A DNA stretch of 64,000 nucleotides from a gamma proteobacterium HTCC2207 (GCA_000153445.1 CH672396.1:624172-688171), one strand, 5' to 3'. Shown: positions 5,574-9,663, numbered from the stretch's first letter. Made by a program: numbers and translations. Notes: generated by a model from the letters alone, not told the origin.

Positions 5574-5590
5574 CAAAAATTTTGAGACAT

Positions 5591-5614
5591 GCCCAAGTGG
5601 TGGAATTGGTAGAC
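5591..5614 (+). pseudogene. isolated 5' half of tRNA-Leu (partial duplicate)
   Basis: These 24 bases are identical to the first 24 bases of the intact tRNA-Leu at 5727, and the two bases before them also match. The copy stops within the D arm. No matching variable arm, T arm or 3' acceptor strand follows, so it cannot fold as a tRNA. The 112 bases between the copies contain two hairpins: GTCGC/GCGAC (5634-5662) and CACGC-TCA-GCGTG (5663-5675). The second is followed by a T-rich run and may terminate secG transcripts. The copy looks like the scar of a tandem duplication or an insertion at the tRNA. Confidence 0.8.
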
Positions 5615-5726
5615 GATGGACAGGAGTCCGAGTGTCGCGATAGGCAGGACGCCGGTAGCGACCACGCTCAGCGTGTTTCTGATTTTGGCGCTAAGTATTT
5701 AAGTTTAGAGAGTTAAGATGATATAT

Positions 5727-5811
5727 GCCCAAGTGGTGGAATTGGTAGACACGCTATCTTGAGGGGGTAGTGGCGAAAGCTGTGCCGGTTCGAGTCCGGC
5801 CTTGGGCACCA
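5727..5811 (+). tRNA. tRNA-Leu (anticodon GAG)
   Basis: Class II tRNA with acceptor stem GCCCAAG (5727-5733) pairing with CTTGGGC (5801-5807), discriminator A5808 and an encoded CCA (5809-5811). The anticodon arm has stem CTATC/GGTAG around loop TTGAGGG, giving anticodon GAG for CUC/CUU codons. The T loop GTTCGAGTC is standard and the long variable arm is present. This corresponds to leuU downstream of secG in E. coli. Confidence 0.95.
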
Positions 5812-5851
5812 TACAAAGACCAGTAAGATTCTTCGTTACTGGCACTCTTAA

Positions 5852-5876
5852 AGCTCCGCTAGTCGGGGCTTTTTTT
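5852..5876 (+). terminator. terminator after tRNA-Leu
   Basis: AGCTCCG (5852-5858) pairs with CGGGGCT (5864-5870) with one G-T pair, followed by six further T residues. A second small hairpin, CCAGTAA/TTACTGG, lies just upstream (5820-5842). Together they should end the secG/tRNA-Leu transcript before the PhoB-controlled gene. Confidence 0.85.
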
Positions 5877-5907
5877 GTGCCCGCCAAAACCTGCTGTTGC
5901 AACACAA

Positions 5908-5952
5908 TTGTCATTTTTATGTCACGTCAATGTCACCTCAAAGCGCTATTTT
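5908..5952 (+). promoter_or_regulatory. three-unit PhoB box and -10 element
   Basis: Three heptamers, TTGTCAT (5908-5914), ATGTCAC (5919-5925) and ATGTCAC (5930-5936), are separated by 4-base spacers, giving an exact 11-base period. This is the geometry of the Pho box (CTGTCAT repeats). A TATTTT hexamer at 5947-5952 lies 10 bases beyond the last unit, the normal distance in PhoB-activated promoters, where the box replaces the -35 element. The next gene start is at 5988. Binding by PhoB is inferred. Confidence 0.8.
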
Positions 5953-5987
5953 CGTCGGACTAAATTTTTAGCTCTCTGGTGAGAATA

Positions 5988-8474
5988 ATGAATAAATTAA
6001 CCTTAAGTATTGCCATACTTGCCGCGACTAACGCAATGGTTGAGTCAGTTGTTGCGCAGGACAGTTCGACGCTTGAAGAAATAACTATAGTCGGCAGTAA
6101 GGCTACCTTGATCTCTGCTATTGAAAAACAGCGTGAATCGAATAGTCTTATCTCTGTTGTCGATTCAGATGCCATGGGTAGCTTTGCTGATACCACTGCT
6201 GCTGAGGCAATTAGAAGACTTCCTGGCATCTCGATTGAAAACGATCAGTCAGAAGGTCGCTACGTCACTATTCGTGGTTTGAGCTCAGACCTAAACTCCA
6301 TCGCCGTGAACGGCGCATCCATGGTGGCACCAGAGAACGGGCGCAGCGTTATGCTCGATGGTCTGCCCACTGAGTTGTTAGACTCTATTACAGTCGCCAA
6401 GTCCCTGACCCCTGATATGGATTCAGATTCAATCGGCGGACGTGTTGATTTCAAGACTAAAAAGCCCTTAGAGCTGGACGACAGACTGCTGGCGCTTAAA
6501 GTACAAAATAATTTTGGTCAATATGCCGCTGAAAAGCTTAACCCTAAGCTGGCATTGACCTACGGCGATAAAATCAATGACATGGCCGCGCATGTCTTAG
6601 GTGTTACCTACTCGAGCAAAGATATAGTCGCATTTAATAATGAGACCGGTTTTGGTTGGGAAGATGGTGCATTGAACGATGATTATGAAATGCGTTATTA
6701 CGAACTCACAAGAGAGCGTTTAGGGATAACTTATGACGTTGATTTTCTCCTTGATGATGACCGTCTATTCGCTAACCTGTTTTGGAATCAGTACAACGAT
6801 TCAGAGCTTCGCTGGAAAGACGAGTACGGTGATATTGGCGACCAAGTGATTTCAACCTCAGAAAATGGCATGGTGGTTAACGAAATCAAACACGATGCCG
6901 AGACCCGTGTTCGTGAAGAGACTCGGACTATTGCAGCGTTCAATTTGGGCTATGAGACTGCAGTTTCTGGTTGGTTTGTCGATACCATGGTCAGTTACTC
7001 ATTTGCTGAAGAAGATGACAGCAATAACGCAGAAGCTAACTTTCGCACCAAATATCGAAATGACGAAAAAATTACGACTATCAATTGGGCCGATTCACAG
7101 CGCCCTTACCTGACGCCTGCTGATGCTTCACTTTACGATCCGGCTGAAATGGGATTTGATGGTTTTGAAGTAACCGCTAATGTCTCTCAGGATTCTGAAG
7201 TCGCTTTTGTCTTCAATGCTGAAAAAGAGTTCGATTTCGGCGTTATAAAAACCGGTGTCAAAGTGAAGAGCCGCGAGAAAGATGTCGACGATTACATCAT
7301 TGTCTATGATGGTTGGGGCGATAACACCCTTGCAGATATGAATCCACAGACTAACAGTGATTGGTTCTTTGCAGACCAAACCTTTAGTCAGCAGGCAGAT
7401 CCAAGCCTAGTATGGGCTATGAAAGATCAGGTTGACGAAATGGATGTCGACTTTGAAGACGATATTAGCCGGGACTTTACCACCACTGAAGATATCTTCG
7501 CGGCATATGTTCAGAATACTTATACCTGGGACAAAGGTGTTGTGGTCGGGGGGATGCGCTACGAAGATACCTCTGTTGACTCCCAAGCTCACGATCAGGT
7601 TACGCTTGCGCAGACCACGGCTTCAAGTGATCACTCGTTCTTTGCACCAAGTGTTAATGTTAAATACTTCTTCAATGATCAACTTCAGTTGCGAGCAGCA
7701 ATTTGGAAAGGTCTGTCACGTCCAGGCTTCGCCAAAACAGCGCCTAAGTTAAATGTTGATTATGACGACGGCGGCGCAAGAGTTAGCGGCTCAGCGGGCA
7801 ATCCACTACTGAAGCCCTACGAAGCAGTTAACTATGATCTATCCATTGAGTTCTATGGCGAGGGCATGACCTTTATTAGCGCCGGTCTGTTCAGAAAAGA
7901 TATCAAGAACGCCATTTATCCGACTATCCAGGAAAATGCCACGATCTTGGGTATTGCCTTCAATGACGGTGTTGAAACCTGGATCAACTCAGGGGATTCG
8001 ACTATTGATGGTTTTGAATTGAATGGCCAGTATGGTTGGGATAACGGCATTTATGTTGCGGCCAATATGACTTTGACTGATGGCGAGAGCAGCTTCGCAG
8101 TTGAAGACGACAAGAGCTTCACTACACCGTTCAGAAAATTGGCTGATGAAGCCGCGAATATCAGTATTGGTTATGACAAAGGCCCTTGGGATGTCCGTGT
8201 AGCGGCTAACTACCGCAGCGAATACCTCGACTGGCTCGCCGACGAAAACGGCAGCATTGATGATCTTAGCGAGAATAATATTCGCTGGGTTGATGCCTAT
8301 GTTCAAGTCGATCTGACCGCCAAATATAAGGTTAATGAAGCCCTTTCAATCAAATTTGAAGCCGTAAATCTGGGCAATCGTGCCGAATATTACTACTGGG
8401 GTGATGATTCACAATTGTCGCAGTATGATATTTTTGGCAAGAACTACTCCTTGGGTATGACCTACAGCTTTTAA
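5988..8474 (+). CDS. TonB-dependent outer-membrane receptor
   Basis: Outer-membrane receptor that would import a ligand energised by TonB-ExbBD. A signal peptide covers about residues 1-24, followed by a TonB-box-like EEITIVG segment. A plug domain contains RRLPGISIE and the TIRGLSSDLN motif typical of the TIGR01782-type receptors of Caulobacter, Xanthomonas and marine gammaproteobacteria. A long beta-barrel ends in the aromatic TYSF. At 828 residues it appears complete. ATG 5988 is preferred over the GTG at 5979 because GGTGAG (5978-5983) lies 4 bases upstream of it. The gene follows a three-unit PhoB box, and the next gene is a phytase. The ligand is therefore inferred to be a phytate-like organophosphate, but the sequence does not prove this. 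Confidence 0.9.
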   Translation: MNKLTLSIAILAATNAMVESVVAQDSSTLEEITIVGSKATLISAIEKQRESNSLISVVDSDAMGSFADTTAAEAIRRLPGISIENDQSEGRYVTIRGLSSDLNSIAVNGASMVAPENGRSVMLDGLPTELLDSITVAKSLTPDMDSDSIGGRVDFKTKKPLELDDRLLALKVQNNFGQYAAEKLNPKLALTYGDKINDMAAHVLGVTYSSKDIVAFNNETGFGWEDGALNDDYEMRYYELTRERLGITYDVDFLLDDDRLFANLFWNQYNDSELRWKDEYGDIGDQVISTSENGMVVNEIKHDAETRVREETRTIAAFNLGYETAVSGWFVDTMVSYSFAEEDDSNNAEANFRTKYRNDEKITTINWADSQRPYLTPADASLYDPAEMGFDGFEVTANVSQDSEVAFVFNAEKEFDFGVIKTGVKVKSREKDVDDYIIVYDGWGDNTLADMNPQTNSDWFFADQTFSQQADPSLVWAMKDQVDEMDVDFEDDISRDFTTTEDIFAAYVQNTYTWDKGVVVGGMRYEDTSVDSQAHDQVTLAQTTASSDHSFFAPSVNVKYFFNDQLQLRAAIWKGLSRPGFAKTAPKLNVDYDDGGARVSGSAGNPLLKPYEAVNYDLSIEFYGEGMTFISAGLFRKDIKNAIYPTIQENATILGIAFNDGVETWINSGDSTIDGFELNGQYGWDNGIYVAANMTLTDGESSFAVEDDKSFTTPFRKLADEAANISIGYDKGPWDVRVAANYRSEYLDWLADENGSIDDLSENNIRWVDAYVQVDLTAKYKVNEALSIKFEAVNLGNRAEYYYWGDDSQLSQYDIFGKNYSLGMTYSF

Positions 8475-8490
8475 CTATTATTGCTTAGTT

Positions 8491-8518
8491 CCTCGGCAGA
8501 GCAGCGTCTCTGTCGGGG
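8491..8518 (+). other. intercistronic hairpin between receptor and phytase
   Basis: CCTCGGCAGAG (8491-8501) and CTCTGTCGGGG (8508-8518) form an 11-bp stem with two G-T pairs and a 6-base loop. No T tract follows, so this looks like an mRNA-stability or partial-termination hairpin rather than a full terminator. It could set different levels for the two proteins. Confidence 0.5.
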
Positions 8519-8559
8519 GATTTACAAATCAATCATAAAGTCTAAAAAAGGAATTGAAA

Positions 8560-9663
8560 TTGCATTTTTTGAAGCAGCTTGTTAAGCCCATTAGTTTAAA
8601 TAAAGTGATCAATAAAAAGGTCTGCATAGCGCCGGTATTTTGTTGTTTGGCTCTCATTAGTGGCTGCAGTACATTGGTTCAAGTGCCTGCACTGTATGAA
8701 ACTCCTCCGGTCATCTCACCCGATGATGCGGCAGATGACCCGGCCATCTGGCTGAATTCTGCGGTTCCTTCGCAATCGCTTATTTTTGGCACCGATAAAA
8801 AAAGCGGGGTTTATAGCTACAACCTTCAGGGTGAAACCGTCGGCTACACCGAGCTCGGTAAAATCAACAATATTGATACCCGCAGTGTCGACGCCGACAC
8901 CTATATTGTCGCGTCAAACCGCACCCAGCAGAGCGTTGATCTGTGGCGCTTTAACGATTCCGCTATGGGTGAAGCTGCTGCCAAGGGTGATTTCTCTCTC
9001 CCTGCAACGCGCTTTATGCAGGGTCAGTCGGAGATTGATATTTATGGTGCCTGCATGGGCCTGGATAAGCGGTTGGGATTACTTGCCTTTGTTACCGAAG
9101 ATGAAGGCCCGCGAGTTGAAGTGTGGAAATATACCGCCGATGGTCTCAAATTGTTACATACCTTTGATAATGGCGGTGAGTCTGAAGGTTGTGTCTATGA
9201 TGATGAAAACCGCACTCTATTGATTTCAGAAGAAGAGGTGAACGGCGTCTTGCGTGCCTACCCAGTAACCGAAGCTCTCGACTTTTCCAATCCGCTGATT
9301 ATTGATTCTCGGGAAGGCAATATTGGTGGCGATCCAGAGGGCGTCACTCTATATAAAACCAGTGCTACAGAAGGCTATATTATCTTATCGTCTCAGGGGG
9401 ACTCCAAATTCAATCTCTACAATCGCACTGCCCCCTATGCTTATTTGGGCAGCTTTGAGGTGGGTGAGGTCGGCACGGTTGATGGTGTGAGCATTACTGA
9501 TGGCGTTGCCGCCATCAACTATCCGCTCAATGAGGACTTTCCTAGAGGGCTCCTAGTGGTCCAAGACAATGACAATATCAGCAAGACCACGCGCAAGCCT
9601 AGGCGTCAGAATTTTAAGTTAATTTCATTTTCCGATGTTATTGAGGCTTTACAGCTTAAATAA
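8560..9663 (+). CDS. beta-propeller phytase, lipoprotein
   Basis: Calcium-dependent 3-phytase-type enzyme that releases phosphate from inositol hexakisphosphate. Family landmarks are in the expected order: DDPAIW near the mature N-terminus, DKKSGVYSY, NNIDTR, the acidic segment ISEEE, DPEGV, SSQGDSKFNLY, GTVDGV, VVQDNDN and RRQNFKLI at the end. A hydrophobic signal ends in the lipobox LISGC, about 36 residues in, so the protein is probably anchored to the outer membrane. The TTG at 8560 is chosen because AAGGA (8548-8552) is 7 bases upstream; the TTG at 8554 is only 1 base from it. It is 85 bases downstream of the receptor gene with no promoter seen between, so PhoB control is likely shared. 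Confidence 0.9.
   Translation: MHFLKQLVKPISLNKVINKKVCIAPVFCCLALISGCSTLVQVPALYETPPVISPDDAADDPAIWLNSAVPSQSLIFGTDKKSGVYSYNLQGETVGYTELGKINNIDTRSVDADTYIVASNRTQQSVDLWRFNDSAMGEAAAKGDFSLPATRFMQGQSEIDIYGACMGLDKRLGLLAFVTEDEGPRVEVWKYTADGLKLLHTFDNGGESEGCVYDDENRTLLISEEEVNGVLRAYPVTEALDFSNPLIIDSREGNIGGDPEGVTLYKTSATEGYIILSSQGDSKFNLYNRTAPYAYLGSFEVGEVGTVDGVSITDGVAAINYPLNEDFPRGLLVVQDNDNISKTTRKPRRQNFKLISFSDVIEALQLK

Follow-up and report, generated by a model that had tools for sequence, protein, structure and literature searches.

The window considered here is a stretch of 64,000 nucleotides (contig 5, 624172-688171) from the 2.63 Mb genome of HTCC2207, a marine SAR92-clade gammaproteobacterium. Between a gene for tRNA-Leu(GAG) and a gene of the TerB-DnaJ type it carries two adjacent genes on the same strand. 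The first encodes a TonB-dependent receptor and the second a beta-propeller phytase lipoprotein, and both lie downstream of three Pho box repeats and a -10 element (Table 1). Together they very probably constitute a two-gene Pho-regulon operon that uses inositol phosphates (phytate and its lower esters) as a phosphorus source, by the mechanism proposed below. An initial annotation of the same DNA had described the three TGTCA heptamers, their 11-base spacing, the well-placed -10 element and the nature of both products. All of this is borne out, with slight corrections to the start sites.

Two genes behind a Pho box

The receptor scores 468.5 bits against TIGR01782, for which the cut-off is 310, and has the plug (PF07715) and barrel (PF00593) domains. 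A separate observation is that residues 234-238, 271-275 and 307-311, on predicted barrel strands, carry alternating conserved charges (E-x-R-x-Y, D-x-E-x-R and K/R-x-R-x-E), and that these motifs are specific to phytase-paired receptors. The phytase matches PF02333 with 162.8 bits (cut-off 21, E = 1.6e-47) and the solved Bacillus phytases at about 1e-36, and it is the sole PF02333 phytase of the host genome. Two phytase motifs have been defined as DA[ATE]DDPA[ILV]W and NN[VI]D[ILV]R (PMC4017775). The first is present exactly (DAADDPAIW) and the second as NNIDTR, with Thr at the variable hydrophobic position. SSQG and TDG motifs are also present. The protein has an export signal and a lipobox (LISG-C), and the lipobox is kept in most close relatives. 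It is absent from some SAR86 homologues, so membrane anchoring is not essential to the phytase family.

Could the protein be something other than a working phytase? A non-catalytic beta-propeller, or a hydrolase of another kind, is improbable. In its favour, the phytases of SAR92 and SAR86 share a single, fully supported branch of the phytase tree, which appears to be new and has a stem of 1.7 changes per site. Furthermore, the position aligned with Lys179 of the Bacillus enzyme is occupied by Asp. However, the equivalents of Bacillus Asp55/56, Lys76, Arg122, Tyr159, Glu211, Glu227, Asp258 and Glu260 are retained, positions that, Lys179 included, presumably have catalytic or calcium-binding roles. 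The Bacillus beta-propeller phytase is a secreted soluble enzyme. The host phytase shares its family, propeller motifs and most catalytic/calcium-site positions (1POO, 3AMR) but differs in being a lipoprotein and in the Asp just mentioned. Recombinant marine beta-propeller phytases from three other clades are active (PMC12406696), which also argues for a functional enzyme here.

A Pho-regulon promoter should have at least two 7-bp repeats in an 11-bp register at a fixed distance from the -10 element. In front of the receptor gene there are three units in exact register, with a 9-nucleotide spacer. The exact triple TGTCA-N6-TGTCA-N6-TGTCA is expected about 0.005 times per 2.63 Mb genome (both strands) and about 0.0001 times per window, and it occurs once in the window. 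The pattern of two units plus a -10 element occurs at a single place in the genome, the receptor-phytase locus. Two-unit near-matches with at most one mismatch are uninformative. Genome-wide there are 129 of them compared with 153 in a reversed control, so there is no enrichment. The weight is carried by a triple that is exact, by where it lies and how it is spaced, and by the fact that it is conserved. Exact two-unit matches number 10 in the genome (5 expected), and these are informative only because seven of them sit at phoB, the divergent pstS/porin pair, the lipoprotein gene after phoU and the receptor-phytase locus. An exact two-unit TGTCA repeat 18 bases 5' of rpsA (L067 2440-2455) is probably due to chance.

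The genome encodes PhoB itself (TIGR02154, 335 bits, above the cut-off). Behind phoB lies a gene for a PhoR-like kinase, and nearby are pstS, genes for two permeases and an ATPase (PstSCAB), and phoU. Hexamers resembling a -10 element lie 9 bases past the last unit at phoB (TTAAAT), pstS (TAGTCT) and the Pho lipoprotein gene (TAAATT). Scoring the upstream region with a PhoB weight matrix had been proposed in the initial annotation. With a matrix trained on this genome's phoB, pstS, Pho-lipoprotein and porin promoters, leaving out the receptor-phytase locus, units 1 to 3 score 10.2, 8.3 and 9.2, like the genome's own Pho promoters. Control of the operon by PhoB is thus supported by a genome-specific Pho box and spacing, both of which are conserved across families (see below).

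The same promoter bears on the idea that the receptor imports phytate-bound iron or another metal, which the phytase would then free. Phytate binds metals, and metal chelates are common cargo of TonB receptors. Moreover, the solved structures closest in fold are receptors for siderophores and heme. However, any TonB receptor would show this likeness, and the neighbours of the receptor group are phosphatases and phosphate transporters, not metal genes. The upstream element is a Pho box and not a Fur box. Indeed, no Fur box was found upstream of the receptor, where the best match to the Fur consensus is 11/19 and overlaps the Pho box. Metal uptake is therefore very unlikely.

Table 1. Features of the receptor-phytase locus, numbered from the first nucleotide of the window.
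Feature	Position	Strand	Remarks
tRNA-Leu(GAG)	5727-5811		
Terminator-like hairpin behind tRNA-Leu(GAG)	5850-5880	+	Upstream boundary of the locus
Pho unit 1, TGTCATT	5909-5915	+	
Pho unit 2, TGTCACG	5920-5926	+	
Pho unit 3, TGTCACC	5931-5937	+	
-10 element, TATTTT	5947-5952	+	9 nucleotides past unit 3
TonB-dependent receptor gene	5988-8474	+	828 amino acids; ATG start at 5988; member of the phosphatase-linked receptor group
RNA stem-loop between the two genes	8487-8522	+	Position conserved; compensating changes in relatives
Beta-propeller phytase lipoprotein gene	8560-9663	+	TTG start most likely at 8560; alternative TTG at 8554
Lipobox cysteine codon (LISG-C)	8665-8667	+	

Pairing, promoters and receptors in other genomes

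A search of 194 related genomes for PF02333 found 31 that carry it, and 30 loci were fetched besides the window's own. A receptor gene adjoins the phytase gene on the same strand at 25 of these 30 loci in the order (window's own excluded). One exception (G007) is a locus broken by a contig end, with the receptor on another contig and a Pho box in front. Among 80 named loci from other genomes, the pair is found in SAR86, Pseudomonas, Thalassolituus, Oleibacter, Alteromonas, Marinibactrum, Pseudohongiella, Euryhalocaulis, Aquisalinus and others. A search of plasmid proteins returned only phytases below 60% identity, the best at 35% among the matches listed. The one plasmid match inspected, on a Sphingomonas plasmid, is paired with a receptor, and this pair is publicly annotated. 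In the Pseudomonas, Thalassolituus, Alteromonas and Sphingomonas pairs (L173, L157, L161, L265) the gene order is as in the host, and the three gammaproteobacterial loci (L173, L157, L161) also have the Pho box and 9-nucleotide spacer. However, the receptors of these pairs are only about 30% identical to the host receptor. The gammaproteobacterial phytases of such pairs also differ from that of the host in often being 600-700 amino acids long and, where one was found, in having a second partial phytase match.

The Pho box goes with the pair. Tested against a length-matched null from each locus, a Pho box is present (p <= 0.05) at 42 of 51 paired loci (34 at 0.01) compared with 7 of 54 unpaired phytase loci, although the loci are partly non-independent (several are congeners, and the window is included), yet span many families. 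Spacing was analysed in 37 promoters scoring at least 9, with the hexamer TANNNT sought at spacings of 3 to 16. It lies exactly 9 bases past the last unit in 26 of them, and all the other spacings together account for one. Looking across genomes for the pair and its boxes had been suggested in the initial annotation, and the outcome supports the view that receptor and phytase function together.

The receptors also form a group of their own. In a FastTree phylogeny of 51 phytase-paired and 27 unpaired TonB receptors from the same or related genomes, the unpaired ones being a sample picked by family score, one branch (support 81) separates the two sets. The paired/unpaired label requires one change on this tree compared with a mean of 22.6 after shuffling, and none of 500 shuffles came as low. 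The host receptor falls with the phytase-adjacent receptors and not with other TIGR01782 receptors. A position among receptors for unrelated ligands, the phylogenetic result that was to count against the initial annotation, was therefore not what was found; its relatives are linked to phytases and other phosphatases.

What do these receptors bind? A search of the same relatives with the window's receptor gave seven more good matches without an adjacent phytase, placed inside or beside the paired group. Three of them adjoin another phosphatase. One, 60% identical to the host receptor, is divergent from PhoA, with a Pho box 5' of the gene between them (G163). Another has a start that overlaps a purple acid phosphatase gene (G152), and the third is convergent with a metallophosphatase gene, with Pho boxes on both (G189). 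For the other four (G155, G076 and two in G187) no phosphatase neighbour was recognised, and one of these has a strong Pho box. The receptor group is probably dedicated to phosphorus, but its members beside PhoA, purple acid phosphatase and metallophosphatase mean that its ligands may not be confined to phytate. Taken further, the receptor might be a general Pho-regulon organophosphate receptor, for sugar, nucleotide and inositol phosphates, with the phytase as one of several interchangeable phosphatases. The three phosphatase neighbours fit this alternative, which is nevertheless rather unlikely. A phytase adjoins most members of the group. Furthermore, G163 is a 75% complete metagenome-assembled genome in which the receptor is divergent from the phosphatase, and phytate is among the substrates that purple acid phosphatases can use (PMC12406696).

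Partners appear to have been exchanged in two ways. Three genomes of a sister genus (g10) have an ordinary phytase of the local branch. The receptor next to it, however, is only about 35% identical to the host receptor and clusters with receptors of the Pseudohongiella type. Between receptor and phytase lies a remnant of 63 codons with an in-frame stop and a 56% match to the C-terminus of the local receptor (L080 5671-5859; L081, L079). The original receptor, of which this decayed remnant is left, has thus given way at the same site to a different receptor of the phytase-paired kind. Some SAR86 loci (L121, L124, L126, L130) have a phytase of the same branch beside a PHO4/PitA phosphate transporter and a porin, not a TonB receptor. 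This porin is related to the host's Pho-box porin beside pstS, and in one locus (L124) a Pho box with a score of 19.7 lies 5' of the PHO4 transporter gene. Both the replacement with its remnant and the PitA-plus-porin alternative seem to be new. A generalisation can be offered tentatively. Perhaps there is a large, phosphorus-dedicated family of outer-membrane receptors, with Pho promoters that share a fixed geometry, by which phosphate esters are imported before hydrolysis, its receptors swapping between phytase, purple acid phosphatase and PhoA while the phytases swap the receptor for another or for a porin and PitA.

Proposed function and its precedents

How would the inositol phosphate operon work? 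Scarcity of phosphate would lead to PhoR-PhoB phosphorylation. Phospho-PhoB would then occupy the three direct repeats, which would stand in for a -35 element, and recruit RNA polymerase to the -10 element nine bases on, so that both genes are transcribed. The receptor would bind inositol phosphates, perhaps in the form of calcium salts, and TonB would drive their entry through the outer membrane. The phytase, presumably anchored in the outer membrane, would remove phosphate, and the PhoB-controlled porin and PstSCAB would gather what is freed. The order of transport and hydrolysis is a matter of inference, as is the membrane face on which the enzyme would act. Entry before cleavage is favoured because a dedicated receptor is present and by analogy with glycan systems. 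The initial annotation had envisaged a probable phytate-use locus with a complete surface system for inositol phosphates. PhoB control and the pair as a unit have stood up. Phytate as the specific ligand is presumptive, given the sister members beside PhoA and purple acid phosphatase, and so is a place for the enzyme on the cell surface. Completeness is also doubtful, because beta-propeller phytases commonly stop at inositol trisphosphate (InsP3).

Besides the possibly wider ligand range and the Asp at the Lys179 position, three other observations weigh against the proposed function. First, a structure search with the AlphaFold model of the receptor (mean pLDDT 82) recovered generic TonB receptors only, with a best identity of 11-16% and no close solved receptor. 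Second, specificity for a polyanion in the form of extra basic residues was considered and rejected: the conserved positions specific to the group are acidic in 27 cases and basic in 10, so a simple basic pocket is absent. Third, only 9 of the 50 genomes sampled from the genus have the phytase.

The two genes may not be expressed equally. The stem-loop between them is strong when the intergenic gap is folded (z -3.6). Folding the gaps of eleven relatives gives z values between -2.3 and -5.1 in ten and a weak stem (-1.3) in the other. Compensating changes distinguish the stems of close relatives, and in two lineages a terminator-like run of U follows the hairpin. Its probable role is to keep phytase mRNA below that of the receptor, which would be the last element of the proposed mechanism.

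The arrangement itself is not new, since it has been published for Flavobacterium and Citromicrobium. In Flavobacterium johnsoniae, the phytase Fjoh_1367 and the TonB-dependent transporter (TBDT) Fjoh_1368 are both strongly induced by phosphate depletion, and organic phosphorus uptake has been proposed (PMC8115612). As in the host, a PF02333 phytase lies next to a TBDT. The likeness is drawn from the description of the pair, and Fjoh_1368, unlike the host receptor, is a Bacteroidetes receptor with a PF13715 domain. In Citromicrobium bathyomarinum JL354, which is marine like the host but an alphaproteobacterium, a TBDT gene also adjoins a phytase gene, phytic acid is the proposed substrate, and the accessible part of the account is without Pho box analysis (PMC3400609). 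The PhoB regulon of Caulobacter crescentus resembles the host in including a phytase and several TonB receptors, with pairing of the two left unstated in the accessible part of that report (PMC11208175). Four Caulobacter-type phytase loci (L162, L164, L178, L187) have no adjacent receptor, unlike the host. In the literature reached, no prior description was found of the receptors as a single group, of a spacing that stays fixed across many families, of the remnant left by the replacement or of the porin alternative in SAR86.

SAR92 and SAR86 are abundant surface-ocean bacteria. In marine metagenome work, beta-propeller phytases have been reported to dominate inositol phosphate breakdown in the sea, and to be active (PMC12406696). 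The main text of that study is silent on TonB receptors, so how phytate gets to the enzyme is seldom considered. The locus illustrates well a gene arrangement known from other bacteria. It also points to a testable SAR92/SAR86 receptor family that is clearly marked by its promoter and offers partner swaps as experiments of nature.

Surroundings and other Pho-regulon genes

The operon lies in a housekeeping stretch, with secG upstream and rimP-nusA-infB downstream (names from translations). The idea that it occupies an otherwise empty site was ruled out, as the congeners G023, G039 and G044 have other genes beside the TerB-DnaJ gene. In two of them, G023 and G039, the tRNA-Leu side of the site is conserved as well. 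The 5' part of tRNA-Leu(GAG) is duplicated exactly over 26 bp (window 5589-5614 and 5725-5750), and in G023 the corresponding region is a five-copy array with a period of 135 bp.

Elsewhere in the genome, the porin gene divergent from pstS (L065 7871-8842 and 8898-9020) has two pairs of Pho units, and its product is likely to be a counterpart of PhoE/OprP. Directly after pst-phoU is a gene with a four-unit Pho box for a 547-amino-acid lipoprotein that has no Pfam match (G000 contig 5 413309-414952; L065 14810-16453). It is followed by a TonB receptor gene (about 415287-417815 of G000 contig 5; L104, L105), the product of which is sister to the phytase-paired receptor group in the tree. Related lipoprotein-receptor neighbours occur in G158 and G166. 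Possibly, this lipoprotein and receptor represent a second, uncharacterised phosphorus-uptake pair.

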